Shown piece after piece: positions 5,498 to 28,600 of a stretch of 64,000 nt of DNA (within the stretch, counting starts at the first letter, position 1; the number at the start of each line of letters is the position of its first letter). A program made the translations under genes and the position numbers. The stretch is from Pseudomonas sp. Root562 (GTDB lineage: Bacteria; Pseudomonadota; Gammaproteobacteria; Pseudomonadales; Pseudomonadaceae): assembly GCF_001427125.1 (NCBI RefSeq), contig NZ_LMGK01000003.1, positions 87,659 to 151,658 of the forward strand, given 5' to 3'. The notes beneath the pieces are model-generated. The model had not been told where the DNA came from and did no database searches. It saw nothing but the letters and a program-made list of their open reading frames with translations.

Positions 5498-6169
5498 TCA
5501 CCCCGGCAACAACTCATCGATATGCCGATACTCCGACTGCAACTGCTCCGCCATCACCTTGCAGCGACCCAGCCTGATCGGCCCACGCTCGATATCGATC
5601 AGCAGCCCGGGACAATTGAATGGCTGCAATGTCGCCCCGTCCTTGATCCGCCCATCCGTGATCACCAGCAAGCGTTGCTGCTCGGCCGGAAAGCGCTTTC
5701 GCCGGGCCGCAAGCCACTGCCCCGCTTCGCTCAAGGCCGCCAGCAACGGCGTGCCGCCACCGGCGCCCAGTCCATCAAGCCAGTGACGCAAACCGCTGGA
5801 CGCTTTCAACCCTTGAACCTGCCACTTCGGCGCAGCGCCACTGGCAGACAGCAAGGCCAGCCGGGCGCGTTGGCGATAGGCGTCATCGAACAACTGCGCG
5901 AGCAAACCCTTGGCATCGCTCAAGGCATGGTGCCGACGGGTCGAAGCCGACGCATCGACAATCACCAGCCACAATTGATTAGCCGAACGTGTGCGCACGT
6001 GGAACAACAGATCCGCACGCACACGTGGCCGACCAATGAGCAAGGTCCCCGGCCAGTTGATCGAACCGCTGCAGGCAGCGTGACGCTTGCCCTGTCGGCC
6101 ATGGTCCAGTCGTCCGGCGCGGGGCCTGGCATTCGCCCCCGCGTCGGATCGGGGGCGAATGCCTAGGGC
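5498..6169 (-). CDS. VWA-domain half of a ChlD/CobT-like chelatase subunit, read by -1 frameshift from the upstream AAA+ gene
   Basis: This frame encodes about 223 aa and continues the AAA+ gene after a -1 slip at 6169-6175. It cannot start on its own convincingly: the frame has no ATG, GTG or TTG between an upstream TGA inside the AAA+ gene and the TTG at 6043, yet conserved sequence (GRQGKRHA and NWPGTLLIG) lies upstream of that TTG. The VWA domain carries a complete MIDAS: DASAS (VIVDASAST), the Thr in GGGTPL, and the Asp in ITDGRIKDG. With the AAA+ part the fused product would be about 557 aa, the size of ChlD-type medium subunits, which assemble with the small AAA+ subunit and CobN to insert cobalt into the corrin ring. 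An alternative is independent initiation at the TTG at 6043 (181 aa), which loses conserved residues. Confidence 0.75.
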   Translation of the reverse strand, partial: ALGIRPRSDAGANARPRAGRLDHGRQGKRHAACSGSINWPGTLLIGRPRVRADLLFHVRTRSANQLWLVIVDASASTRRHHALSDAKGLLAQLFDDAYRQRARLALLSASGAAPKWQVQGLKASSGLRHWLDGLGAGGGTPLLAALSEAGQWLAARRKRFPAEQQRLLVITDGRIKDGATLQPFNCPGLLIDIERGPIRLGRCKVMAEQLQSEYRHIDELLPG

Positions 6170-6175
6170 TTTTTT
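6128..6175 (-). promoter_or_regulatory. Programmed -1 ribosomal frameshift signal: slippery heptamer plus hairpin
   Basis: On the minus strand the zero-frame codons CCA AAA AAG CCC TAG contain the heptamer A_AAA_AAG (6175 to 6169), the most efficient known bacterial -1 slip site. Five bases later begins a perfect 14-bp stem (6150-6163 pairing with 6128-6141, 8-base loop). The zero frame stops at TAG (6163-6165) directly after the slip site, while the -1 frame runs on into the VWA domain. Heptamer phase, spacing and stem strength all fit a stimulated -1 frameshift. Confidence 0.8.
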
Positions 6176-7170
6176 GGCCAGCTCGGCACTTCCCGGCGGG
6201 CGCCGACAGGCGATGCCTGAGGAGCCATTTCACCCCACTGCCCCTGGCCTTCACCCGGATTGGTCGTTTGCGGCGAAGACGACTGTGGCGCTTGCGCCGG
6301 TTGTGGCGCCGATGCGGCAAGCTCACGGCGACGATGGCGCAAGGCGAACTCGGCGACCGCGTCGATATCTTCGACGCTGATGGCACGAGCGCCACGCCAG
6401 GCTGCGTGGGCACGAGCCGCGCGCAGCCAGACCAGATCGGCGCGCATGCCGTCGACTCCGGCGGCGAAGCAGCGTTCAGTGATCTGCGCCAGCGCGTCGT
6501 CGTCCAGCGGGATGCTCGTCAACGCAACGCGTGCCTGCTGGCAACGCTCGCGCAGGCTCGCTTGTTGGCTCTCCCACGCGGCGCAAAAGCGCTGGGGATC
6601 GCTGTCGAAATCCAGGCGCCGACGGATGATCTGGCCGCGCTCTGCCGGTGCGGTGTGGCCGCTGAGGGCGACATTCAAGCCAAAGCGGTCCAGCAGCTGC
6701 GGCCGCAATTCGCCCTCTTCCGGGTTCATGGTGCCGATCAACACGAATTTCGCCGAATGCCGATGGGAGATGCCATCCCGCTCGATCAGATTGGTACCGC
6801 TGGCGGCGACGTCGAGTAGCAGATCGACCAGATGATCCGGCAGCAGGTTGACCTCATCGACGTAGAGCACGCCGCCATCAGCCTTGGCCAGCACACCCGG
6901 TGAAAATTGCGCCCGGCCTTCACTCAGCGCGGCATCCAGATCGAGGGTACCGACCAACCGCTCCTCAGTCGCGCCCAACGGCAAGGTAACGAACTGACCG
7001 CTGGCGAGCAGGTCCGCGAGGCCTCGGGCCAATGTCGACTTGGCCATGCCACGCGGACCTTCGATCAGCACACCGCCGATCTTCGGGTCAATGGCGGTCA
7101 GGTACAGCGCGAGCTTCAAATCGTCGGCGCCGACCACGGCGGACAGGGGGAAATGCGGAGTGTCGGTCAT
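6163..7170 (-). CDS. AAA+ ATPase subunit of cobaltochelatase, ChlI/CobS-like (zero-frame product)
   Basis: A product of 335 aa from ATG at 7170 (MTDTPHFPLSAVVGADDLKLALYL). An in-frame ATG at 7197 is an alternative start, and the open frame runs to 7314 through repeat DNA. The AAA+ module shows Walker A GPRGMAKST (about residues 38-46), Walker B VLYVDEVNLL (about 106), and GTMNPEEGELRPQLLDRFGLNV (about 150), the Mg-chelatase I signature. A Pro/Gln-rich linker (QPAQAPQSSSPQTTNPGEGQGQ) leads to the stop at 6163. Mg- and Co-chelatases need a hexameric ATPase, a VWA-bearing partner and the large CobN/ChlH subunit. Here cobN lies just upstream on the same strand, and the partner seems to be made by frameshifting from this gene. 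The linker after the AAA+ domain is what one expects in a ChlD rather than a stand-alone ChlI. Confidence 0.88.
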   Translation of the reverse strand: MTDTPHFPLSAVVGADDLKLALYLTAIDPKIGGVLIEGPRGMAKSTLARGLADLLASGQFVTLPLGATEERLVGTLDLDAALSEGRAQFSPGVLAKADGGVLYVDEVNLLPDHLVDLLLDVAASGTNLIERDGISHRHSAKFVLIGTMNPEEGELRPQLLDRFGLNVALSGHTAPAERGQIIRRRLDFDSDPQRFCAAWESQQASLRERCQQARVALTSIPLDDDALAQITERCFAAGVDGMRADLVWLRAARAHAAWRGARAISVEDIDAVAEFALRHRRRELAASAPQPAQAPQSSSPQTTNPGEGQGQWGEMAPQASPVGARREVPSWPKKP

Positions 7171-7201: not shown

Positions 7202-7461
7202 CTGTGGCGAGGGAGCTTGCTCCCGCTGGGCTGCGCAACGGCCCCAAAAATCAGATACACCACGGTTTCGGGTTTTTTGTGATCGTTCCCACGCTCTGCG
7301 TGGGAATGCCTCAACGGACGCTCCGCGTTCGGCTCTGGGTGGGACGCGGAGCGTCCCGGGCTGCATTCCCACGCGGAGCGTGGGAACGATCAGCTATACG
7401 CCACGGTTTCGGGTTTTACGACTGCTTCGCAGCCGAGCGGGAGCAAGCTCCCTCGCCACAG
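7202..7461. repeat. REPIN-like inverted repeat with a second palindromic element nested inside
   Basis: Perfect 26-bp inverted arms CTGTGGCGAGGGAGCTTGCT.. (7202-7227) and its complement (7436-7461) enclose 208 bases. The same arms recur at 15499-15631. Nested between them is the 111-bp element 7281-7391, flanked by 22-bp direct repeats with one mismatch (7255-7276 and 7396-7417, containing CCACGGTTTCGGGTTTT). It occupies most of the 309-base gap between cobN and the chelatase ATPase gene. Confidence 0.8.
7281..7391. repeat. 111-bp palindromic intergenic repeat, copy A
   Basis: Begins GATCGTTCCCACGCTCTGCG and ends with the near-complement CGTGGGAACGATC, with an internal inverted pair (GGACGCTCCGCG / CGCGGAGCGTCC). 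A copy of identical length stands at 12758-12868. Two copies flank the cobN-cobW segment. Confidence 0.8.
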
Positions 7462-7479: not shown

Positions 7480-10400
7480 TCAACTGTCTTCTTCTATGTC
7501 CAGCAGCAGGTTTTCCAGCGCCTCGCGATACTCGCCCGGCGCTTTCCACATGCCTCGCTGTTGCGCTTCGAGCATGCGTTCGGTCATGTCGCGCAACGCG
7601 TGGGGATTGTGCTCGCGGACAAAATCCCGGGTGTCCGGATCGAGCAAATAGGCATCTGCCAGCAAGGCGTACTGATGATCGTCGATCAGCTGTGTGGTGG
7701 CGTCGAAGGCGAACAGGTTGTCGACAGTCGCAGCCATTTCGAAGGCGCCTTTATAGCCATGTCGCTTTACCCCGTCGAGCCACTTGGGATTGGCTGCCCG
7801 CGAGCGGATGACCCGGTTCAGCTCTTCCTTGAGCGTGCGGATTTTCGGCAAGTCCGGCTGGCTATGATCGCCGTGGTAACTCGCCGCCGCGGTTCCGCTG
7901 AGGCTTTCCACCGCCGCGAGCATACCGCCCTGGAACTGATAGTAGTCATTGGAATCGAGCAGATCGTGCTCACGGTTATCCTGATTTTGCACAACGGCCT
8001 GCACTTGACTCAGGCGTCGACTGAAGGGTTCTCGGGCCAGGGTGCCCTCGTCAGATCCGCCATAGGCGTAACCGCCCCAATTCAGATAGACCTCGGCCAG
8101 ATCCTCACGGCTTTGCCACAGCCGACCGTCGATAGCGCCCTGCACTCCTGCGCCATACGCGCCGGGTTTGGCACCGAAAATTCGCCAACCGGCCTGGCGT
8201 CGGGCCGATTCCTCATCAACCCCCGATTGCAGCAACGCTGCCCGCTCGGCACGGACCTTGGCCGCCAACGGATTGAGATCGTCAGGTTCATCCAGCGCAG
8301 CCACCGCTTGTACAGCGGCGTCGAACAAGCGGATCAGATTGGCGAAGGCGTCGCGGAAGAACCCGGAAACGCGCAAGGTCACGTCCACTCGCGGCCGATC
8401 GAGCAAGCTCAGCGGCAGGATCTCAAAATCGTCGACGCGCTGACTGCCGGTAGCCCATACCGGGCGCACGCCCATCAACGCCATGGCCTGTGCGATATCG
8501 TCGCCACCGGTGCGCATGGTCGCGGTGCCCCACACTGACAGGCCGAGCTGACGCAGATGATCGCCATGATCTTGCAGGTGGCGTTCAAGAATCAGGTTGG
8601 CCGATTGAAAACCGATGCGCCAGGCGGTTGTGGTCGGCAGGTTGCGCACGTCCACCGAATAAAAATTGCGCCCGGTGGGCAGCACGTCCAGCCGTCCGCG
8701 ACTCGGCGCGCCGCTGGGGCCGGCTGGCACGAAGCGGCCGCCCAAGGCATCGAGCAGGCCGCGCATTTCTGCCGGGCCGCAGGCGTCCAGGCGTGGTGCG
8801 ACCACTTCGCGCAGATTGTCGAGGATGGCCTGGACCTCGGACCAACCCGGCCCCTGCAGGAGCGAGCCTGCTGGCGAGGGTGTGTCAGCTGCGTTGGCGT
8901 CGACTGACACGCCATCGCCAGCCGGCTCGCGCCTACACGGATCGGTCAACGCCTGCGAGATCAGTTGTGCGGCGAACAACTCAAGGCGTTCGCGGGTATC
9001 GCCAGCGGTGCGCCAAGCTTCTTGGGTGAGGTTGTGCAGTTCAATTGGTCGCGGCCCAGTCCATGGTTCGGCCAACACGCAATCCAGCGGATCGAAACCC
9101 AGCGAGAATGCCTTGGCCAAAGCGCGCAGCAAGCTCGATTGCGCACCACGCCCGTCACCCCGGGGGATTCGCAGCAATGCCAGCAACGTATCGATACGCA
9201 AGCGCCCGACCGGCGACTCGCCGAAAACATGCAAGCCGTCGCGGATCTGCGATTCCTTCAAGTCACACAGGTAAGTGTCCAGGCGCGGCAACCAGATCGC
9301 CGCATCGACATCGCTGTCGAGTTGTTCGTCCAGTTGCAGTTCGCGGTCGATGTGGGTGTCGCGCACCAGTTGCAGGATGTCGCGCTGCAACTCGCGGGCG
9401 CGACGCGGATCGAGCAATTGCGCTTCGTAGTATTCGTCGGCGAGCAACTCGAGATTGCGCAGCGGGCCGTAGGTTTCGGCACGGGTCAGCGGTGGCATCA
9501 AGTGATCGATGATCACTGCCTGGGTCCGTCGCTTGGCCTGGGCGCCCTCGCCCGGATCGTTGACGATGAATGGATAGATGTTGGGCAGCGGCCCGAGCAA
9601 TGCATCCGGCCAACAGTGTTCCGACAGGCCTACCCCTTTGCCCGGCAGCCATTCGAGGTTGCCGTGCTTGCCGACGTGGATCAGCGCGTGGGCGCCATAG
9701 GTGTTGCGCAGCCAGAAGTAAAACGCCAGATAGCCGTGGGGCGGCACCAGGTCCGGGTCGTGATACACCGCGCTCGGGTCCACCTGATAGCCGCGCGCCG
9801 GTTGAATGCCGACGAAGGTCAGGCCGAAACGCAGCCCGGCGATCATCATTCGGCCGTTGCGGCACATCGGATCGTTTTCCGGCGCCCCCCAGCGAGCCAG
9901 CACCGCGGCGCGATTAGCTGCGGGCAGTGCGTTGAACATTTTCAGGTAATCATCCATTGCCAGACTTTGCTGGCAGGGACGCTGGTCGAGAGTGGCCAGG
10001 TCATTACTGACACCGCCAAGCAATTGCTCGATCAGCGCGGTGCCGCTGGCCGGCAATTCGACGTGTAGCGGATAGCCTTCTTTATGCAGCGCACGCAGAA
10101 TGTTCAGGGCAGCGGCCGGCGTGTCGAGGCCCACACCGTTGCCGATGCGGCCGTCGCGGGTCGGGTAATTGGCGAGGATCAGCGCCACGCGCTTTTCAGC
10201 ATTGGGCAGGTGTGCCAGGTCGGTCCAGCGCCGTGCGAGCTCGGCGACGAAGTCCATGCGTTCGGGTTGCGGGCGGTAGCAGACAACATCCGATTGGCTG
10301 CGCTCACTGCGCCACGCCAGATCCTTGAAGCTGATCGGTCGGCTGATAATCCGCCCATCCAGCTCTGGCAGGGCAATGTGCATCGCCAGATCACGCGGGC

Positions 10401-11322
10401 CGAGGCCTTGTTCGCTGGCGCGCCAGCCCGGCTCGTTGTCCTGGGCACAAATCGCCTGGATCACCGGGATATTGCGGCGAAATGGTCGCAGGTGCGGCGC
10501 TTCAGGGCTGGACTGGGCGAAACCGGTGGTGTTGAGAATCACCGCCGCTTCAGCCTCGTCCAGCAGGTCCTCGACCACCGTCAGGCAGCCGGGCTCTTTC
10601 AAACTGGCCAGCGCGATGGGCAACGGATTCAACCCGGCAGCCTGCAAACGCTGGCAAAAAACATCGATGAAACCGGTGTTCGCCGCTTGCAAATGCGAGC
10701 GGTAAAACAGCACGGCCGCCACCGGTTGACCCGCCTGCCATTCAGCCTGCCAGTCATTCAATTGAACGGTGTTTTTTTGCGGATGGTAAATCGCCGTGCG
10801 CGGCAACGCTTGCGGTTCGGCCCAGGCGTAATCCCGCGCCAACCAACGATTGGCCAGGCAACGGAAAAAATCCAGGGCATTGCCCATGCCGCCCTGACGA
10901 AGAAACTGCCAGAGCCGATCACGATCCTCGGCACCGACGGTGCTCAGGTCACTGAGTTCCGGGTCCGGGCGATCGTCACCCGGCACCAGAATCAACTGCA
11001 CTCCACGCTGCGACAATTGCACCAGCCGCTCGACGCCGTAACGCCAATAGGCAATGCCGCCGTGCAGCGAGATCAGAATGACCTTGGCGTGGCGCAAGAC
11101 TTCATCGACATACAGATCAACCGAGGCATGATTCTGCACCTGCATCGGGTTCGCCAGGCGCACGCTCGGATAATCGTCGGGCAACTGCTGCGCCGCTTCG
11201 GCAAGCAACGCGAGGCTGGAATCGCCGCTGCACAGGATCACCAGCTCGGCGGGGGTTTGTCCAAGGTCGGCAATGTTGTCATCCGACACGAAACCGCCGG
11301 GCTGGGTCCTGAGCAGGTGCAT
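7480..11322 (-). CDS. cobN: Cobaltochelatase large subunit CobN
   Basis: A 1280-aa protein of the size and character of CobN, the subunit that binds hydrogenobyrinic acid a,c-diamide and receives cobalt in the aerobic B12 pathway. Recognisable CobN/BchH segments are HVGKHGNLEWLPGKGVGLSEHCWPDALLGPLPNIYPFIVNDPGEGAQAKRR (mid-protein), GRFVPAGPSGAPSRGRLDVLPTGRNFYSVDVR, and YGSDEG-type YAYGGSDEGTLAREPFSRRL near the C-terminus. The ATG at 11322 lies 3 bases after the cobW stop, indicating co-translation. Residues about 793-821 (RREPAGDGVS...SLLQG) are encoded by an in-frame REPIN-like palindrome, a probable late insertion in a surface linker. Upstream control by the B12 riboswitch before cobW is inferred. 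Confidence 0.95.
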   Translation of the reverse strand: MHLLRTQPGGFVSDDNIADLGQTPAELVILCSGDSSLALLAEAAQQLPDDYPSVRLANPMQVQNHASVDLYVDEVLRHAKVILISLHGGIAYWRYGVERLVQLSQRGVQLILVPGDDRPDPELSDLSTVGAEDRDRLWQFLRQGGMGNALDFFRCLANRWLARDYAWAEPQALPRTAIYHPQKNTVQLNDWQAEWQAGQPVAAVLFYRSHLQAANTGFIDVFCQRLQAAGLNPLPIALASLKEPGCLTVVEDLLDEAEAAVILNTTGFAQSSPEAPHLRPFRRNIPVIQAICAQDNEPGWRASEQGLGPRDLAMHIALPELDGRIISRPISFKDLAWRSERSQSDVVCYRPQPERMDFVAELARRWTDLAHLPNAEKRVALILANYPTRDGRIGNGVGLDTPAAALNILRALHKEGYPLHVELPASGTALIEQLLGGVSNDLATLDQRPCQQSLAMDDYLKMFNALPAANRAAVLARWGAPENDPMCRNGRMMIAGLRFGLTFVGIQPARGYQVDPSAVYHDPDLVPPHGYLAFYFWLRNTYGAHALIHVGKHGNLEWLPGKGVGLSEHCWPDALLGPLPNIYPFIVNDPGEGAQAKRRTQAVIIDHLMPPLTRAETYGPLRNLELLADEYYEAQLLDPRRARELQRDILQLVRDTHIDRELQLDEQLDSDVDAAIWLPRLDTYLCDLKESQIRDGLHVFGESPVGRLRIDTLLALLRIPRGDGRGAQSSLLRALAKAFSLGFDPLDCVLAEPWTGPRPIELHNLTQEAWRTAGDTRERLELFAAQLISQALTDPCRREPAGDGVSVDANAADTPSPAGSLLQGPGWSEVQAILDNLREVVAPRLDACGPAEMRGLLDALGGRFVPAGPSGAPSRGRLDVLPTGRNFYSVDVRNLPTTTAWRIGFQSANLILERHLQDHGDHLRQLGLSVWGTATMRTGGDDIAQAMALMGVRPVWATGSQRVDDFEILPLSLLDRPRVDVTLRVSGFFRDAFANLIRLFDAAVQAVAALDEPDDLNPLAAKVRAERAALLQSGVDEESARRQAGWRIFGAKPGAYGAGVQGAIDGRLWQSREDLAEVYLNWGGYAYGGSDEGTLAREPFSRRLSQVQAVVQNQDNREHDLLDSNDYYQFQGGMLAAVESLSGTAAASYHGDHSQPDLPKIRTLKEELNRVIRSRAANPKWLDGVKRHGYKGAFEMAATVDNLFAFDATTQLIDDHQYALLADAYLLDPDTRDFVREHNPHALRDMTERMLEAQQRGMWKAPGEYREALENLLLDIEEDS
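8853..8939. repeat. REPIN-like inverted repeat inside the cobN reading frame
   Basis: Arms 8860-8888 (GAGCGAGCCTGCTGGCGAGG..) and 8904-8932 are inverted copies of each other with only a few mismatches, and match the REP family seen at 56149-56249 and 16337-16430. Such elements normally sit between genes, but here one is read through as about 29 codons of cobN. Confidence 0.75.
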
Positions 11323-11325
11323 GGC

Positions 11326-12387
11326 TTACACGCTGAGCGCGGCGCGCAATTGCGCTTCGAGCAGGCTGGCGTCCAGTGCCTGGCCGATCAGCACCAGACG
11401 AGTGACGCGTGGTTCCTCAAGGCTCCATTGACGATCGAAGTGCTTGTCAAAACGTGTGCCCACGCCCTGAATCAACAGGCGCATCGGTTTGTTCGGGATT
11501 GCAGCGAAGCCTTTGACACGCAGGATGCCGTGCTGGACCACCAGTTGGGTCAGCGCGTCCATCAGCAGGCTTTCGTCGGCTTGCGGCAGCTCGATGGAGA
11601 TGGAATCGAAAGCATCGTGATCGTGATCGTCTTCGCCTTCATGGTGGTGATCATGATGGCTATGACGGCTGTCGATGTGCTCTTCAGAGCCGGCACCCAG
11701 GCCGATCAACACGTCCAGCGGCAAGCGCCCGCTGCTGGCTTCGATGACTTTTACCGCAGGCGGCAGTTCTTCGGCGACTTCCAGGCGCACGCGCGCCAGG
11801 TCTTCAGGGCTGATCAGGTCGGCCTTGTTGAGGATCACCAGGTCAGCGCTGGACAGTTGATCGGCGAACAGTTCGTGCAGTGGCGATTCGTGGTCCAGGT
11901 TTGGGTCGAGTTTACGCTGGGCGTCGACCTGATCCGGGAATGCGGCGAAGGTGCCGGCCGCCACGGCCGGGCTGTCGACCACGGTGATCACCGCATCAAC
12001 GGTGCAGGCACTGCGGATTTCCGGCCACTGGAAGGCTTGTACCAAAGGTTTTGGCAGGGCCAGGCCCGAGGTTTCGATAAGAATGTGATCGAGATCACCG
12101 CGCCGGGCGACCAGTTCGCGCATCACCGGGAAGAACTCTTCCTGAACGGTGCAGCACAGGCAGCCGTTGGCCAGCTCATAGACACGGCCACTGGCTTCTT
12201 CTTCAGTGCAACCGATTGAACACTGCTTGAGGATCTCGCCATCGATGCCCAGCTCACCGAATTCGTTGACGATCACTGCGATGCGGCGACCCTGAGCGTT
12301 GTCGAGCATGTGTCGCAGCAAGGTGGTTTTACCCGAGCCGAGGAAGCCGGTAACGATGGTGACGGGGAGTTTGGCCAGTGTTTTCAT
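11326..12387 (-). CDS. cobW: CobW, GTP-dependent metallochaperone of cobalamin synthesis
   Basis: A 353-aa G3E-family GTPase from ATG at 12387 (MKTLAKLPVTIVTGFLGSGKTT). The open frame reaches 12435, but those residues precede the conserved start. Motifs: Walker A GFLGSGKTT (residues 14-22), the metal-binding CxCC in NGCLCCTVQEEF (about 72-83), LIETSGLA (about 100), and the guanine-specificity NKAD (about 193). A His/Asp-rich loop (HSHHDHHHEGEDDHDHD, about 248-264) is a typical metal-binding insert. CobW proteins are thought to deliver Co(II) to the chelatase. Its place just upstream of cobN and below a B12 riboswitch fits that. It is the first gene of the leftward operon. Confidence 0.93.
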   Translation of the reverse strand: MKTLAKLPVTIVTGFLGSGKTTLLRHMLDNAQGRRIAVIVNEFGELGIDGEILKQCSIGCTEEEASGRVYELANGCLCCTVQEEFFPVMRELVARRGDLDHILIETSGLALPKPLVQAFQWPEIRSACTVDAVITVVDSPAVAAGTFAAFPDQVDAQRKLDPNLDHESPLHELFADQLSSADLVILNKADLISPEDLARVRLEVAEELPPAVKVIEASSGRLPLDVLIGLGAGSEEHIDSRHSHHDHHHEGEDDHDHDAFDSISIELPQADESLLMDALTQLVVQHGILRVKGFAAIPNKPMRLLIQGVGTRFDKHFDRQWSLEEPRVTRLVLIGQALDASLLEAQLRAALSV

Positions 12388-12497
12388 CGGATGCCCTTTG
12401 GCAAGGTGGCGGGCATACGGGACGAGAACCGGCAACGCCTGTGCGCGCCGGAAGCGTTCGCCACCGGATCACCCCGCCCGGTTGTAGTGAGAATCTG

Positions 12498-12695
12498 TAT
12501 CGAGGCAGGTCTCCTGGCTGACGGTGTCCCAGTCGCTTGACTGGCGTTGGCTGCGCCTTCCCGCGGGCTCAGGACTTGAGCGTGCAGTGGCGTGGCAGCG
12601 AACATCACCGTTCACAGTTGCGGGGGCAGCCGCGGCATTGACCGCGTTCCCTTCTTAGCTTCGACAAACGCCGAAGAACCTCGAAAGCGCAAGGC
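12498..12695 (-). ncRNA. Cobalamin riboswitch controlling cobW-cobN-chelatase operon
   Basis: Reading the minus strand, the B12 box AGCCAGGAGACCTGCC lies at 12519-12504. Upstream are the core elements AAGGGAACGCGGT (around 12655) and GCTGCCCCCGCAACTGTGA (around 12620). These are the conserved blocks of AdoCbl riboswitches. The aptamer ends about 110 bases before the cobW ATG at 12387. Such leaders repress expression when cobalamin is plentiful. End points are approximate. Confidence 0.92.
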
Positions 12696-12757
12696 TACGC
12701 ATGGTATTGGGGCGGGTCAATGATCAAGCCAAATCGATCGTTCCCGCGCTTTGCGTC

Positions 12758-12984: not shown

Positions 12985-13205
12985 TCTCCTATGCATCTTG
13001 TTACGGGTGCCCTTCACAGGGTGAAACGGGAAACCGGTGAATCATGTGCTTTACTCCAAGCCATGTCAGTCCGGTGCTGCCCCCGCAACGGTAAGCGAGC
13101 GAAGCGTCAGATCCACTGTGCCGATGAGGCATGGGAAGGTGATGCTTGCAGGAACAGGCTCAGGCCTGCGCCCCTCGTGAGCCCGGAGACCGGCCCGCAA
13201 CACAA
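12985..13205 (+). ncRNA. Cobalamin riboswitch controlling cbtB-cbtA-cobE-cobM
   Basis: Plus-strand leader with GGTGCCCTTCACAGGGTGAAACGGGAAACCGGTG (13007-13039), GGTGCTGCCCCCGCAACGGTAAG (13073-13095) and the B12 box AGCCCGGAGACCGGCC (13180-13195), the diagnostic AdoCbl riboswitch blocks in correct order. It ends about 130 bases before the cbtB start. Aptamer boundaries are approximate. Confidence 0.93.
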
Positions 13206-13228
13206 GGTGAATACACCATCACTGAATG

Positions 13229-13333: not shown

Positions 13334-13528
13334 ATGTCGATCACCAGCAGCACCGCTCATAGCAACACTGCCAGCGCCACCAATACCCTGACTCAACGTC
13401 TGACCGCCGCTGTCTGCGCGTCGATTCTCGGCGCATGCCTGGTGTACTTCGCCGGTTTCTCGCACATCGAAGCCGTGCACAACGCCGCGCACGATACCCG
13501 TCACAGCGCCGCGTTCCCGTGCCATTGA
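13334..13528 (+). CDS. cbtB: CbtB, small subunit of predicted cobalt transporter
   Basis: A 64-aa protein with one membrane segment (LTAAVCASILGACLVYFAGF, about residues 23-42) and a short His-bearing C-terminus (HIEAVHNAAHDTRHSAAFPCH), the standard CbtB form with the presumed metal-binding tail. The ribosome site AGAGGGAAA precedes ATG at 13334. It follows a B12 riboswitch and is followed 11 bases later by cbtA. CbtAB are predicted cobalt uptake proteins identified by their riboswitch association, and biochemical proof is limited. Confidence 0.92.
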   Translation: MSITSSTAHSNTASATNTLTQRLTAAVCASILGACLVYFAGFSHIEAVHNAAHDTRHSAAFPCH

Positions 13529-13539
13529 GACCTTCAGAC

Positions 13540-14253
13540 ATGATCAAGCGTATTGCGCAAACCGCAGGTTTCAGCGGGCTGCTCGCCGCCCTGCTGCTCA
13601 CTCTGCTGCAAAGCTTCTGGGTCTCACCGCTGATCCTGCAGGCCGAGACCTACGAGAAATCCGAACCCGCCGCTGTTGAAGCCCACGAACACACCCACTC
13701 CGAAGGCGCCGTTGCCGCGCACACCCACGATGGCGAAGCCTGGGAACCGCAAGACGGTTGGCAGCGTGTGCTTTCGACCACTGGCGGCAATCTGGTGGTA
13801 GCCGTCGGCTTCGCCCTGATGCTCGCCGGGCTCTACACCTTGCGCGCACCGACCAAAACCTCCCAGGGCCTGTTCTGGGGCCTGGCGGGCTACGCAACCT
13901 TCGTGCTGGCGCCAACCCTGGGCCTGCCGCCTGAATTGCCGGGCACCGCTGCCGCCGATCTGGCGCAACGGCAGTTCTGGTGGATTGGCACCGCGGCCTC
14001 CACCGCGGTGGGTATCGCCCTGATCGTGTTCAGCCGTCACTGGCTGATGAAAGTCCTCGGCGCGGCGATCCTTGCGGTTCCCCACGTGATCGGCGCGCCG
14101 CAACCGGAAGTGCATTCGATGCTGGCACCCGAAGCACTGGAGACCCGTTTCAAAATCGCTTCGCAGCTGACCAACGTGGCGTTCTGGCTGGCCCTGGGCC
14201 TGATCAGCGCCTGGTTGTTCCGCCGCAAAAACGATGGCCAATACCGCGCATGA
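13540..14253 (+). CDS. cbtA: CbtA, membrane subunit of predicted cobalt transporter
   Basis: A 237-aa integral membrane protein from ATG at 13540 (MIKRIAQTAGFSGLLAALLL). The longer open frame from 13435 overlaps cbtB and is not used. Hydrophobic segments occur near residues 9-30, 85-103, 115-135, 150-170 and 215-230. Between the first and second lies a His-rich loop (AHEHTHSEGAVAAHTHDGEA, about 47-66), a likely cobalt-binding site. It partners with CbtB in importing cobalt for the chelatase encoded on the other side of the divergent control region. Its stop overlaps the next ATG (ATGA at 14250-14253), showing translational coupling. Confidence 0.92.
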   Translation: MIKRIAQTAGFSGLLAALLLTLLQSFWVSPLILQAETYEKSEPAAVEAHEHTHSEGAVAAHTHDGEAWEPQDGWQRVLSTTGGNLVVAVGFALMLAGLYTLRAPTKTSQGLFWGLAGYATFVLAPTLGLPPELPGTAAADLAQRQFWWIGTAASTAVGIALIVFSRHWLMKVLGAAILAVPHVIGAPQPEVHSMLAPEALETRFKIASQLTNVAFWLALGLISAWLFRRKNDGQYRA

Positions 14254-14663
14254 CTGAAGTCAGCACAGTGCCGACCCTGGTGGTCGGCCTGGGCTGCCAA
14301 CGCGGCTGCCCGGTGAGCACGTTGCGCGCACTGCTCGATCAGGCGCTGCAAGCACACCGGATCGAGCTTCATGACATCAAGGCCCTGGCCAGCATCGACT
14401 TGAAGCGCGACGAACCGGCTCTGATCGAATTGGCCACGCAACTGGCGTTGCCGTTGATGTTTTTCAGTAGCGAACAACTGGCTGGTTATCAGCCACACCT
14501 CAGTCACCATTCACAGATCGCCTTCGAGCGCACGGGTTGCTACGGCGTGGCGGAAAGTGCCGCCCTGGCCTTGGCCGAACAACTGGGCCATGCACCGGCA
14601 AAACTGCTGATCCGGCGACAAAAATATGCCCAGGCCACTCTGGCATTGGCCTGCGCTGCGTAA
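14250..14663 (+). CDS. cobE: CobE/GbiG C-terminal-like cobalamin biosynthesis protein
   Basis: A 137-aa protein beginning MTEVSTVPTLVVGLGCQRGCP, with the glycine/cysteine-rich start and the CYGVAESAALALAE segment (about 103-116) characteristic of CobE and the C-terminal domain of CbiG. CbiG-type domains open the delta-lactone of cobalt-precorrin-5A. CobE is a small protein required in the aerobic pathway, of less clear function. The gene overlaps cbtA by 4 bases and precedes cobM by 83 bases, so the four rightward genes form one riboswitch-controlled operon. Confidence 0.88.
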   Translation: MTEVSTVPTLVVGLGCQRGCPVSTLRALLDQALQAHRIELHDIKALASIDLKRDEPALIELATQLALPLMFFSSEQLAGYQPHLSHHSQIAFERTGCYGVAESAALALAEQLGHAPAKLLIRRQKYAQATLALACAA

Positions 14664-14746
14664 AATCCCCGATAATCCGCGCAATCGATCATGAGCAATC
14701 TTCATTTGAAGCCTTGCCCAGCCCCTTTTTTCCACAGGAACCGACG

Positions 14747-15493
14747 ATGACCGTCTATTTCATTGGCGCAGGTCCCGGCGACCCGGAACTGATTACCGTC
14801 AAAGGCCAGCGCCTGATTCGCAGCTGTCCGGTGATCATTTATGCCGGCTCATTGGTACCCGCCGCTGTTCTTGAAGGCCATCACGCCGAGACGCTGGTCA
14901 ACAGCGCCGAACTGCATCTGGAACAGATCATCGAGCTGATCAAGCGCGCCCACGCCAACAACCAGGATGTGGCGCGGGTGCACTCGGGCGATCCGAGTCT
15001 GTATGGTGCCATCGGCGAGCAGATTCGCCACTTGCGCGAACTCGGCATTCCTTTCGAGATCATCCCCGGCGTCACTGCGACCGCCGCCTGTGCCGCGCTG
15101 CTTGGGGCGGAACTGACGTTGCCGGACGTGTCACAGAGCGTGATCCTGACCCGCTATGCCGACAAAACCGCGATGCCGACGGGCGAAGAGTTCTCCAGCC
15201 TGGCGCAGCACGGGGCGACCATGGCGATTCATTTGGGGGTTAATCACCTGACGAAGATTGTCGAAGAGCTTGTGCCGCATTACGGCGCAGATTGCCCGAT
15301 TGCGGTGGTTCATCGAGCGACCTGGCCGGATCAGGATTGGGTGCTCGGAACGCTTGAGGACATTGCCGACAAGGTTGCCGCCAAAGGGTTTCGTCGTACG
15401 GCGTTGATTCTGGTGGGGCGCGTGCTGGGCAGTGACCAGTTCAGCGAATCGTCGCTGTATCGCGCCGGGCATGCGCATTTGTACAGGCCCTGA
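14747..15493 (+). CDS. cobM: Precorrin-4 C11-methyltransferase
   Basis: A 248-aa tetrapyrrole methylase starting MTVYFIGAGPGDPELITVKGQR, the signature SAM-binding N-terminus of the family. Further motifs are YAGSLVPAAVLE (about 29-40), VARVHSGDPSLYGAIGEQ (about 76-93, the CobM-typical HSGDPS) and IPFEIIPGVTATAA (about 101-114). It methylates C-11 of precorrin-4 with S-adenosylmethionine to give precorrin-5 in cytoplasmic corrin ring synthesis. An AGGA ribosome site lies about 8 bases before ATG at 14747. It is the last gene of the cbtB operon, and a REPIN follows 5 bases after the stop. Confidence 0.94.
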   Translation: MTVYFIGAGPGDPELITVKGQRLIRSCPVIIYAGSLVPAAVLEGHHAETLVNSAELHLEQIIELIKRAHANNQDVARVHSGDPSLYGAIGEQIRHLRELGIPFEIIPGVTATAACAALLGAELTLPDVSQSVILTRYADKTAMPTGEEFSSLAQHGATMAIHLGVNHLTKIVEELVPHYGADCPIAVVHRATWPDQDWVLGTLEDIADKVAAKGFRRTALILVGRVLGSDQFSESSLYRAGHAHLYRP

Positions 15494-18750: not shown

Positions 18751-18905
18751 GTCCCTGGTCCCGATCCTTTAAAAAACGCCGCGATTCTACCGGTCCGGCG
18801 CCCTCTCCAACATGAACGATATTCATGCAAAACCCGAACATGCTCTAAAAGCGCACAGGTTTGCTATTATCCGGCCCTTCGTCATGGTCTTTCCGAGTAG
18901 TCCCA

Positions 18906-22616
<3,711 letters not shown>

Positions 22617-22677: not shown

Positions 22678-25600
22678 TTACAACCCCACCAGCGTCCGCT
22701 CTATTTCAGACAGTTCGCGCAACAGCTTTCCTTGCTCGAAGACAAGGTCTGCCTCGATCGCCTGCATGGCGATCTTGTACTGCTCCTGCGCGCCTTCGCC
22801 GTAATTCGGAAACTGCTCATCCACATCGTGCTCTCTGCCTGCGAAACCCTCACGCAACTGGGCAAACCGTTCAGGGTATTTTTCTTTCAAATAATCGCTC
22901 CAATATTGGCGGCCGACCAACTCATCAATCAATGCCGGTGATTGTTCTGCCGCGATCACTTCAGCATGGGCCGCCTCCAGCATGGCAGACGAAACGTTGC
23001 CGCTGTAGCGCATGCCTCTGGGTTGTCCCGGCAGTTCAAGTCGCTCGGCAAGGCCGATACGATAAGCCAGACGCACTTCAGCCGGATCAGTCGAGCGGCG
23101 CTGTGCCCGGCGCTGGGCAATATCGCGGTTGGCGATCTCCTCGACCTTGCCAAGTCGAAACAGATTCCTGCCGAGCCGGAACAAGACTTGGCCATGCTGC
23201 CCCGGTGCAATTGACTTCGAGGTTTCGAACTCGAAAACCTTGACCTCTATATTGCTGAACAACAGGATTTGGCCATCGACGCAGGTTGCGCCGGCTCTCG
23301 CCAATTCGAAAATCGTATCCCTCAGACCTGCGTCGCTATCGGCCACCCTCAATACGGTGTGGACCCGCCGCACAAGATCAGCACGTCCTGTCATGAAGTC
23401 TGTCGTACCTTCCAGCCGGGTCAGCAGATTGAAAAAGAACTGATTGTTTTGCGCTTGCTCAAAATCATTCCAGATCCGTATCAACTCCTCGGCATCTGCA
23501 GCTGACGAATCGATCCAACGTTCACGAGCCTCGGCACCCGTCACCTCATCCATATCCACTTCAACGTCACTCACGATCGAGTCATCGCTATCGCTGTCGT
23601 CAACACTGCTGCTTTCGCTACTGCTGTCAAACCGCTCCAGTGCCTCGTCAATCTCTGTTGAACGCCATCCCACTATCTGCTCGCCTTCCTGCACTTGATT
23701 ATGCAACATCAGCAAGCTTGTACCATCGAGGGTCTCGTTGCCGGCCAGATTGGTGCCCGCACGCAATACCCTGTGCGCGTCGGCCATCAGGGCTGGCGGA
23801 ATGAACTCGATCATGTTGTCGCGCAAATCCAGGGTGCTGAGTGAAGGGAGCTCAAGTGCACCCTGCGGCCAGATGACCAGACGATTGCCACTCAGATCGA
23901 GGGTTTGCAAACTTCCAAGGCCGCTGACATCCAGTGACTCGAGCCAGTTTTCTGAGAGGCTCAACGACTCCAGGTTGCTCAACCCGGCAAGCTGACGCTC
24001 AAGCTCAGCTGCATTGGAGAAACGGTTATTGGCCGCCGAAAGTCGCTTGAGGCGGCGCAAAGAGGTCACTGACGCTGGCAAGGCATCCATCGCGTTGGCA
24101 TCCAGCGCCACGGTATGAAGGTGAGTAAACGCGCCAAGAAATTCGCTTAGCCCGTCTTCACTCAGATACACATTATTGAGGTTCAACTCACCGACATGAG
24201 CGAAGTCGGCAGTTAGCGTCGGGAGATGGCCCAATGGGATATCGGACAAATCAAGGGTAATGCCTGCCGATGTACCACGCAGGTTCTGCCTCCAGCACGC
24301 CATTATCCGGTCAGCTGCCTGGCGGCGTTCGGTGGCGGCGATCCACACAGGAGGTGACGATTCAACGCGGTGCTGTGGCGGGGTATCGATCCATGTGTTC
24401 AGGGACTTCGTCAATGCCTGGTGTTGGCTGTCCCACTTGGCCAATTGCTCGTACAGAGGGCCAGCCCCGCCATGGCGCGTGGCGAGCACATCGATGATCC
24501 GTATCGCCTCGGCCGCCGGCAAATCCGGATCAAGCCTTTGCAGGCGGGCTTGCGGGGTCAAGCGTGTCAGGTCATTGCCAGGTACAACGGGCAGCGGCAA
24601 CAACAACTCCGGATTCTGCGCGACCAGCACCGGAAAATACTCGGGTTCGCCCTCTGTAAAGCCTGTCTGCAAGCTGGCCCTGGAAATGCCCATAGGGTTT
24701 TCCGACGAACTGCTTGCCAGCAAATCGCTGCGGGCCTTTGCCGTCAATCGGCAACCCTGCAAATCGATTTTTGAAAGGTGTTGAGCGGTCAGAGCCGTCT
24801 CGGGAATCGTCGTGATAGCGCTGTTGTTCAGCTCGATCCTGTCGAGGCTGGACAAGCCCCACAAACCCGATGGCCAGTCTTTGATGGCGGTATGCCCCAC
24901 ACGCAAAGTCTGTAAGCGGGACATGGCACTCACGTCCAGCGAATCGACCCGGTTATAGCGCAAGTCCAGGCTTTCCAGGGCAGATAACCGGTTCAGGCGC
25001 TGCTGCATGCTCGGGGTGATGGTCAGGTGATTGCGGCTCAGATTCAGCTCACTGAGTTTTGTCAGGTTGCCCAGTGTCGTCGGCAGACTCTGCAGCTGAT
25101 TGCTACTCAGGTCCAACCGGCGAATGTCGGTGAAGCCGCGCAAAAATCCACTGACATCTTCGGATGAGGCCATGACCCCCGACATTTGCAAGGTTTGCAC
25201 ATGAGCAAAATCTGTTGCCGACAACGTCGGCAGTTCAGGCAGGTCGCCCAGCGCCCAGCCTGACAAATCCAGATTCGATGAAATGATTTGTCCGGGCATG
25301 AGGGGCCATGAACGCACCGTCGAAGGGCCGAGCTCCGGTTGCGAAACCGGTACCTCCTGCGCGCCGCCATAACGTTTACGCAGGCCATCACGCCAGCACT
25401 CGCGGATTCGCCGGGCAATGACCTCCCGCTCCCGAAGGTTGACTTGCCGGCCATTGGCTTTTGTCGTTTGCTGCTGCCACCGCTCCAGTTGCAGGCGCAG
25501 CGCCTGTCCATCCTCGCGCAGCCCATTGATCCGTGCCAGCAATGCCCGCCCTGCCAACCCTTCTGCCTTCATTCGCCCAAGGGCAGCCTTTGAAAGCTCT

Positions 25601-28600
25601 TCGCTGGTTTCCAAGGCATCATTCAGCGTGCCTCGGCAATATCGATCGAGCATGTGCCCGCTATCCTGCAAATGCGCAGGATGCTCGTGCACATACTCGT
25701 ACGCCCTCACGAAGTCCTCGGTACTCAGCCTGGCCCAATTGAGTTTCATGCCGGGCCACAGTGCTTCGTGACCGGCAAGCCATTGAGCGGGGAGTGTCTT
25801 GACGCTTGAGTGAGTGAGGTCCAGCGCTCTGAGCTGAGGCAATTGCTGGGCGCCCTTGGGCCAAACCTCTGTCGTTCCGTACACACTCAACGAATGCAGG
25901 CGAGTCAGACCACTCACATCCAGTTCGCCCGCCATGCCGATCACGTCCAATTGTTGCAGTTGCGGCATGGCGTCTATCGCCGCTTGGACAGTTGCGCTGT
26001 ACTCCTGCCCCAGCGGCCCGGCGATTCGCAAGTCATGTATGCCTGGCAATGCCTTCAGCTTCGCGGCCAACTGAACTCTGTCGACGCCATCCCGGACGCC
26101 CAACTTCAACGACCGGGCGTTGGGGAACTGACGTAAAAAGGCTTGCGGTGTCTGACTCAACATTGCACCCGCACTCATATGCAGTCGACTGACGTGAGGA
26201 AAGTTGCCAGTCAGTTCCGGCAAGCTGTCTGCAACACCGATATCCAGGTAAACACTGGCAGCGCCATCATAAATTCCCCGCTGCTGCCAGACGCCTTTGA
26301 TGTTGCGCGCGACCTGATGACGGAGAGTATGCGGACCGCCGCTTTCAACCCACTGGTCCAGTTGCGCCGACAGCGTCTCGTACTCCTGGGCGCGCAAGTT
26401 CAGTAAATGGGCAATTTGCGTTTCGGTCATACCATCAAGCGCAAGCTGAATGACCATCGATTCCGCCATCTCATCGGAGACGTTCGGATAGACATCCCGC
26501 AACCTGGAGACCAACGACGGATTGACCATTGCGCCGGCACCTCGCCCGCTCATCGGGTAGCCGACCCTGCCGTCCGCCAGGCGTCGCGGCGCACGGAATC
26601 GTGAAGTGCTGGCGCCAGGTGCGAGGGTTTGCATCATCTGCTCACGGTGGCCCATGGCATAGGTGGTCACTGCCTCCTGCAACCTGGCACCCTGCGCGAC
26701 ATTGGGCATGCCCAACCGGGCGCGGGCATCGTCTGGTAACGCATGCATGAGCGAAGAAAAAAAGTTGTCGCCTGCTTTCGGTACGCTATTCAACGAATTC
26801 TGGTGCTGGTCAAAGGCCTGGTACTGGTTGGCTTGATGGTGCTGAGAGCCGTCCCTCACCAGGTATTTGACCTGCTCGGCGGTTTCGCTACCGATGCTGT
26901 CGAGCAATTTTCCGTCGCAATGGCCCAGACGCACTTCCAGACGCAGGTTGTTCGGCCAGCCGGGGAGTCGTTCCAGGCTGTGCAGAGCCAAACGCTGGCT
27001 GTCCAATGACGCCATGCTTTCCAGATGCAGTCCGGCCAAGGCTTTGTTCAGCCGAGTCACCCGGGCGCGCGCCCTCCCCTTGAGTAACAAGCTTGTGGGG
27101 AGCCGGCCGGTTTGATTGATGTGCAGCCGCTCCTTGGCTGTGGCATTGGCCAGGACTTCTTGCGCCGCGTCCGTCGACAGGCTCGGGAAAGTGCTGCGCA
27201 GCGCCTGAGTTTCACGGTTCGTCGACTTGGCGCTCTGGCTGAGTTTGTCGAACAACGCGGTTTTGTTGCCTGCAAGGTGATCGCCCAGCTGTTGTCGAAA
27301 TACAGCTTCGCGCTCTGCCTCGACTCGCGCACCTTCACTCCCCAGCAAGCGAACGATTTCGCCCTCATCCAATGCTGCAAGTACGCGTTCAGGGAGTTTC
27401 CCGGCAGACACATCCTCGCGGGAAATCCTGATGCCCGGCTTCGCCGGTAGTGACGCCTTACCATAGCGGGACGAAGCTCCCGTCAGGCCTGGATTGTCGA
27501 ACACGTCGATTACACGTCCATGGGGCCAACGGGGCATTGTGATCACTTGCAGCAAAACGTCGTTGTAACGGCTGTCCGGCACCGGCTGATCGAGACGAAT
27601 CTGTTCAATCAGTTCATTGAGCTGCCGGTCAGTCTGAAACTGCCGCAACGTATCGGACAACGCAGAGGGCAAGCTCAGGTGATCCATATGGATCTTGCGC
27701 AACGCGTCGTCGTCAACGCCGCTGATATCGGCAATTTTCTCCAGCGTCGCTGCATCGATACCTTCGGTGACCGGGCCCAGACGTCGCAGTAATGTCGCTC
27801 GATCCCACTCCAGCGGTCGCTCGAAACGATGGCGCCACGCGCCCCCTGCGTAGTGTTCAAGCACCGGGGAGTAAGCATCCGAGACTCTCGGGTTTTTTAG
27901 TCGCCATTTGTTCAGCACGGGATCGAAGGTCTTCTCGTAGACGTTACCGTCAAGCCTGATATAGGTTTTGCCATCCACTTGATATTGCCCACGCTCGTTG
28001 GGCTTGAGGCCCACCGGCAAGACCCTGTCGCTCAAGTAAGGTCTCAAGCCAGGCCGCCACAACTGTTCGCTGCCAAACGGCAATTTGACTTTGACCAAGC
28101 CATCGGCGATGGGCGTCGACAGCACTTTCGGCACTTTACCGGCTACCGTACCTACCGCCGCCATGAAGGCAACGTTCACAGCCACCGACTTCAAGTAACT
28201 CCAGGCCTGATCCGTGTCGCCAATGCTCCACGCTTCAACGCCGTGATAAACATCCATGGTCAGTTGCACGGCCATCACGGCCATCATGACCTCGCCCAGG
28301 CCAGGGACGAAAAATGCTGCTGCGTTGAGTACGCTCAGCCCCCATTCGGCATACCGGGCGAGTCGTTCATACCAGGCCTCATGATCAACTTTGGCGGTCG
28401 GCACCGCCAATTGCTCGGCAGTCTCTTTCAGGCGCTTCTGATGCCGCCTGTACAGCTCGCCGAACAGTTCGGTATCAAAGAATTCTTCACTGATATCCAG
28501 AACCGGCTCGTCCCGATACACGTGTTCGTAGATGCCGTCGAGGTGCCCCAGCGCGGTTTGTTTGCGGTAAGGAAAATCCGGGTTCCATTTGAGCGTTTGC

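Follow-up and report, generated by a model that had tools for sequence, protein, structure and literature searches.

The analyzed window is a 64,000-nt stretch of Pseudomonas sp. Root562 (contig NZ_LMGK01000003.1), and its numbering is used throughout. Its reverse strand carries cobW (11326-12435), cobN (7480-11322) and, downstream of cobN on the same strand, chlD (7170-5498). TIGR02257 identifies the product of cobN as the cobalt chelatase large subunit (1733.4 bits, cut-off 822.05), and the score of this protein against BchH, 684.8 bits, is below the cut-off of 829 for the magnesium large subunit. CobW was recognized by TIGR02475 (527.6 bits, cut-off 332.1); its true start may lie inside the open reading frame, since the profile aligns from residue 21 onward. 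A cobalamin riboswitch (RF00174, 101.6 bits) is located upstream of cobW-cobN-chlD at 12487-12698 on the reverse strand. A second one, at 12988-13212 on the forward strand, precedes a divergent set of cobalamin genes encoding the cobalt transporter subunit CbtA, a CbiG_C protein, and a tetrapyrrole methylase (13435-15493, forward strand). Measured from match end to match start, cobN and chlD are separated by 313 nt here, the median being 30 nt (range 3-509) in the 105 of 113 Pseudomonas loci where the end of cobN falls within the compared upstream flank. REP-like inverted repeats occupy this gap in the window (7202-7461), with 49-nt arms at 7280-7328/7344-7392 and 48-nt arms at 7202-7249/7414-7461.

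The zero frame of chlD starts at ATG 7170 and encodes a 335-aa AAA+ protein of the ChlI/CobS type (7170-6163). It ends as ...TGG CCA AAA AAG CCC TAG, so that the slippery heptamer A_AAA_AAG stands in zero-frame phase at 6175-6169 and the stop TAG, at 6165-6163, lies 3 nt past it. After the five-base spacer CCCTA (6168-6164) comes a predicted stimulatory hairpin (6163-6128) with a perfect 14-bp stem, 6163-6150 paired with 6141-6128, and an 8-nt loop; the last base of TAG is the first base of the stem. A ribosome slipping by -1 would enter an open frame (6169-5498) that adds 223 aa with a VWA domain, the MIDAS motif of which begins with DASAS at 5956-5942. This frame ends at TGA 5500-5498, giving a read-through total of 557 aa, and its earliest ATG, GTG, or TTG is TTG 6043. 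The initial annotation had described the heptamer and its phase, the stop three bases on, the 14-bp stem five bases downstream, and an open VWA frame with no start before 6043, and each of these agrees with the sequence to the base.

The AAA+ part matched ChlI both by profile (NCBIfam) and by comparison with sequences of known structures (8osf, E 7.1e-84; 1g8p, E 2.4e-79), and the -1 part matched VWA_2 and the BchD chain 2x31 (E 1.3e-7). The two parts match opposite ends of TIGR02442 (putative cobaltochelatase), but here these ends lie in two frames, and the 557-aa read-through product scored 476.7 bits, below the curated cut-off of 779.45. The AAA+ part also remained below the magnesium chelatase cut-offs, with 336.3 of 466.95 bits for TIGR02030, a cut-off that says little in whole-genome searches because none of the 14 control genomes exceeded it, and 239.2 of 499.55 bits for TIGR02031. 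The likeness to ChlI and BchD of magnesium chelatase is one of sequence; unlike that enzyme, the Root562 locus has CobN and not BchH/ChlH as a neighbor and one gene instead of two.

The AAA+ part was present in 113 of 119 Pseudomonas genomes (E ≤ 1.4e-99), and all 113 loci were compared, as the initial annotation had proposed. Taken alone, AAAAAAG is not rare: it occurs 10 times in the window with 5.66 expected, and 7 of 100 shuffled versions had at least 10. The chlD heptamer rises above chance because it is in phase in 109 of the 113 orthologous loci; within these 109 it is present by selection, so 109/113 is the fair count. AAAAAAG occurs once per gene in them (109 occurrences). The codon giving its first A is CCA in 79 loci, GCA in 24, ACA in three, CAA in two, and TCA in one, corresponding to five amino acids. 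Lysine elsewhere in the AAA+ part is encoded by AAG 324 times and by AAA 163 times, yet the site is AAA-AAG. The zero-frame stop follows the heptamer after 3 nt in 106 loci, 21 nt in two, and 0 nt in one, and it turns over in identity (TAG 69, TGA 37, TAA 3). The Walker A motif GPRGMAKST and the Walker B motif LYVDEVN are kept in 108 and 109 of the 109 loci, respectively, and the motif RPQLLDRF in all 109; the MIDAS begins with DASAS in 107.

The remaining loci do not have the in-phase heptamer. Three have other frames (L045 in G052, L113 in G034, and L114 in G080), and one (L111 in G076) stops short of the heptamer site. For the first three, an assembly error is likely, though unproved, because cobN is likewise fragmented in G052 and G034, and the completeness of G080 is 86%; in G080 the AAA+ part lies in two frames and cobN in one piece. 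Apart from the split frames themselves, only these three relatives could suggest that the Root562 gene is decayed or contains a sequencing error. The probability of this is negligible, since the identical split recurs in 109/113 loci of different genomes, and an error in this strain, the objection foreseen in the initial annotation, is not upheld. Moreover, judging from substitution ratios, both parts, the -1 frame included, are under purifying selection: the median dN/dS was 0.22 for the -1 frame and 0.11 for the AAA+ part (97 of 108 comparisons, dS < 1.5).

The predicted hairpin is supported by covariation across Pseudomonas. The region 6180-6090 folds with an energy of -46.9 kcal/mol (z -3.96), matched by none of 200 shuffles, and the 55 nt past the heptamer have energies from -17.2 to -38.0 kcal/mol across the 109 loci. 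For the stem count, a script placed 95 of these loci in one register, yielding 85 distinct rows. Stem cells are paired in 89.0% of cases in these rows, compared with 33.0-50.1% in slid versions of the stem, and 41 cells have changes in both bases (mean of the shuffles 15.6, none of 500 as high); one pair appears as CG in 47 rows, UA in 27, and UG in 11 and is broken in none. None of the 500 shuffles and none of the six slid versions reached the observed numbers of paired and doubly changed cells or the observed covariation score. Two weaker measures were the further pair types, matched by 8 of 500 shuffles, and the doubly changed pairs, of which six were observed and which were matched by 38 of 500. 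Of the 14 loci outside the count, 13 form a stem that starts at the stop, and the stem of L112 starts a few bases beyond it; two (L009 and L013) share the register and were missed by the pattern of the script. A looser rule, giving 87 rows, produced the same picture.

The VWA part could also be translated without frameshifting, through re-initiation or internal initiation at a start codon of its own. Some ATG, GTG, or TTG is present upstream of the heptamer in the open -1 frame in 58 of the 109 loci, which counts against frameshifting as the best explanation, and start codons also occur past the heptamer, at +210 in 83 loci and at +132 in 61. We consider this origin of the VWA part very unlikely. 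The other 51 loci, Root562 included, have no upstream start, and the commonest column, -63 (88/109), derives in Root562 from a Trp codon in the other frame and is cut off there by a -1 stop. Since no start column is common to all 109 loci and 51 have none upstream, an own start was rejected; it would also leave the heptamer and the hairpin unexplained. The initial annotation had reserved the case that homologous loci might have a normal VWA start and no conserved heptamer or hairpin, and this is not what the Pseudomonas loci contain.

Alternatively, the second frame could be created by transcriptional slippage at the A run, and runs longer than that of Root562 do occur outside the genus, namely, A10 in G309 and A7 in 5 of the 69 split genes among the best 80 of 594 matching stretches described below. 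A run of six As is short for slippage by the polymerase, the G that follows it and the hairpin agree with tandem tRNA slippage, and A7G is found at the site in only 2 of the 109 Pseudomonas loci, which makes this explanation hardly credible. The dnaX gene of Escherichia coli has a downstream hairpin, and its shift, aided by an upstream Shine-Dalgarno sequence, yields a short product. No conserved Shine-Dalgarno-like motif was found at positions -28 to -7 of the 109 chlD loci (AGGAG in none, GAGG in 23), so a dnaX-like upstream stimulator was rejected, and chlD differs from dnaX in this respect. The heptamer itself is the same in both genes, according to a passage on dnaX in the review of Atkins et al. 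(2016; PMC5009743).

Genome searches for partner genes pointed to CobN. Over the cut-off, cobN is present together with chlD in 113 of the 119 Pseudomonas genomes and absent together with it in six (G014, G041, G042, G060, G069, and G082). No match to CobS or CobT (TIGR01650 and TIGR01651, E ≤ 0.001) was found in the Root562 genome, and neither exceeded its cut-off in any of the 119 genomes. As a second ChlI-like gene, nothing above 28.4 bits was found in the Root562 genome besides chlD. CobS, CobT, or a second ChlI as a partner in this genome was therefore rejected. The proposal that one gene supplies both predicted subunits for CobN is in line with the upstream position of cobN, the absence of matches to CobS and CobT, and the one-to-one co-occurrence with cobN in the 119 Pseudomonas genomes. 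In 2020, Antonov reportedly described genomes holding cobN and chlD only. CobS/CobT-like pairs below the cut-offs were noted in seven genomes (G013, G015, G038, G041, G042, G054, and G060) and may be something else, because three of the seven have no cobN over the cut-off. G060 and G082 encode distant CobN/BchH-like proteins of 1447 and 1441 aa (L185, 5429-9772, and L186, 5179-9504), with an open reading frame for a ZIP transporter near the former gene and one for a TonB receptor near the latter. These proteins are possibly HmuS-like, a name used in PMC12583661.

A frameshifted chlD in Pseudomonas is already known, since passages of three publications (PMC3711429, PMC5009743, and PMC9227772) deal with it. 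The cluster of magnesium chelatase frameshifts described in the relevant part of Antonov et al. (2013; PMC3711429) includes Pseudomonas; 63, 40, and 10% frameshifting in E. coli is given there for three cassettes containing 11, 9, and 7 As, whereas the Root562 site is A_AAA_AAG. In its section on such genes, the review of Atkins et al. (PMC5009743) mentions both Pseudomonas and A_AAA_AAR and shows the hairpin of Pseudomonas protegens, from which Root562 differs in 8 of 42 bases. The passage of Kuznetsov et al. (2022; PMC9227772) on Pseudomonas aeruginosa states that the frameshifted chlD supplies both cobalt-chelatase subunits. As far as these passages go, the genus, the gene pair, the A_AAA_AAR shift site, and the hairpin at the stop are the same as in Root562. 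Compared with what they contain, nothing essential is different, and the Root562 gene is the ortholog from another strain.

Ribosomal frameshifting is the best reading of the locus because the heptamer is conserved, the stem covaries, the stop changes in identity and in three loci in position, and both parts are under purifying selection. With a probability of about 0.87, chlD is the frameshifted gene of a cobalt chelatase, with a 335-aa AAA+ and a 557-aa AAA+/VWA product both acting with CobN. Some ribosomes would likely terminate at TAG and release the shorter, ChlI/CobS-like subunit. Others are predicted to slip by -1 at A_AAA_AAG, probably with the help of the hairpin, and would produce the longer, ChlD/CobT-like subunit. 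Together with CobN, both products would insert cobalt in aerobic cobalamin synthesis, and the riboswitch at 12487-12698 would probably make cobW, cobN, and chlD responsive to B12. The two frames, the heptamer, the stem, their conservation, the neighboring genes, and the absence of matches to CobS and CobT are features of the sequences themselves. We infer that frameshifting operates in this strain, and also its rate and the stability of both products; both products may be needed, and the genes presumably form a single operon. As a predicted bacterial programmed -1 frameshift that likely sets the subunit stoichiometry of a metal-inserting enzyme, the locus offers a clean example on the scale of a whole genus.

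Beyond the genus, a class sample of 369 genomes contained 21, Root562 included, that match TIGR02442 at E ≤ 1e-50. Among the other 20, the gene is split in four, fused and of the same short type in eight, and fused but longer in two, and the last six have ChlI-/ChlD-like stretches; in G225, both such stretches lie within one 1020-aa open frame. One of the six, G440, also holds a fifth split gene (L173), which has A_AAA_AAG with TGA three bases on and occurs alongside separate ChlI- and ChlD-like genes. At the stop of each of the five split genes lies an A heptamer in phase. The ten fused relatives are G390, G483, G397, G311, G174, G169, G413, G136, G144, and G146, with G174 counted as fused although its VWA part spans two frames. 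An in-phase XXXYYYZ near the junction, with Y being A or T, is absent in nine of them. The exception, G136 (L136), has an AT-rich genome of 0.36 Mb in which A runs are numerous; it retains cobN, and its chlD, fused in frame, has A10 and A11 runs at the junction, where slippage could give a short form.

A second set consisted of the best 80 of 594 matching stretches and overlaps in part with the class and genus genomes. It contained 69 split genes, eight fused ones, and three ending before the site, fused being an open frame longer than 480 aa (in one of the eight, L262, a VWA match was not found). Among these best 80 of 594, the heptamer is present in 69/69 split and 0/8 fused genes: A_AAA_AAG lies 3 nt before the stop in 63 and directly before it in one, and A_AAA_AAA lies 3 nt before it in five. 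The split genes come from Pseudomonas, Caballeronia, Paraburkholderia, Cupriavidus, Denitromonas, and others, and the fused genes without the heptamer from Motiliproteus, Neptuniibacter, Marinomonas, Psychromonas, Litchfieldella, and Granulosicoccus. Three of the eight fused loci have other heptamers (CCCTTTT, CCCAAAC, and AAATTTA), none of which is shared. Leaving aside the error-prone assemblies, the heptamer accompanies the split in all split genes that are not cut. A tree of the AAA+ part with 29 rows, including 12 chosen from the 113 Pseudomonas loci and G136 on a long branch, requires three changes between split and fused forms (two to four over bootstraps), of which well-supported branches alone force only one.

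The fused relatives bear on the role of the short product. In the split, short-fused, and longer-fused groups, cobN is over the cut-off in 14/14 genomes, including all ten fused ones. A second ChlI-like stretch above 28.4 bits was not found in these 14 except for a 49-residue fragment in the fused genome G144, and CobS is over the cut-off in two, the fused genomes G169 and G413 of one genus. The requirement for a separate small subunit is weakened by this, because fused relatives have cobN and no second ChlI-like gene. In the open-access literature, we found no paper devoted to fused chlD without a separate small subunit. It is thus conceivable, if doubtful, that the 557-aa product is the sole working AAA+ partner of CobN and that the frameshift mainly sets its dose, the 335-aa product being a by-product or a minor ring member. 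However, Pseudomonas keeps the stop right past the heptamer in 106 of 109 loci instead of fusing the gene, and magnesium chelatases require separate I and D subunits. In addition, the searches of the fused genomes covered cobN, CobS, and ChlI-like genes, and fused genes might yield the short form in another way.

We tentatively suggest that frameshifted and fused chlD are interchangeable and that the frameshift sets the dose of AAA+ to AAA+/VWA chains and is not the sole route to an indispensable small subunit, unlike in magnesium chelatase, because the heptamer tracks the split, fused genes lack it, the tree needs three changes, and fused genes would serve CobN without a separate small subunit. 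The fused relatives are natural, built-in controls for the need of a small AAA+ subunit in cobalt versus magnesium chelatase.

Two divergent frameshifted chlD genes with 56-57% identity were found in G027 (L112) and Pseudomonas benzenivorans (L255), both having A_AAA_AAG with a stop three bases on. In the tree, L112 clusters with G263 of another family, apart from the other 11 Pseudomonas rows. L112 and L255 likely represent a second, transferred lineage of the frameshifted gene. The window also contains a gene for B12-dependent methionine synthase (18861-22616) and, on the reverse strand, a 2353-aa open reading frame (22678-29739) with ToxA_N, leucine-rich repeats, and an NEL E3-ligase domain, the predicted product of which looks like an injected effector.
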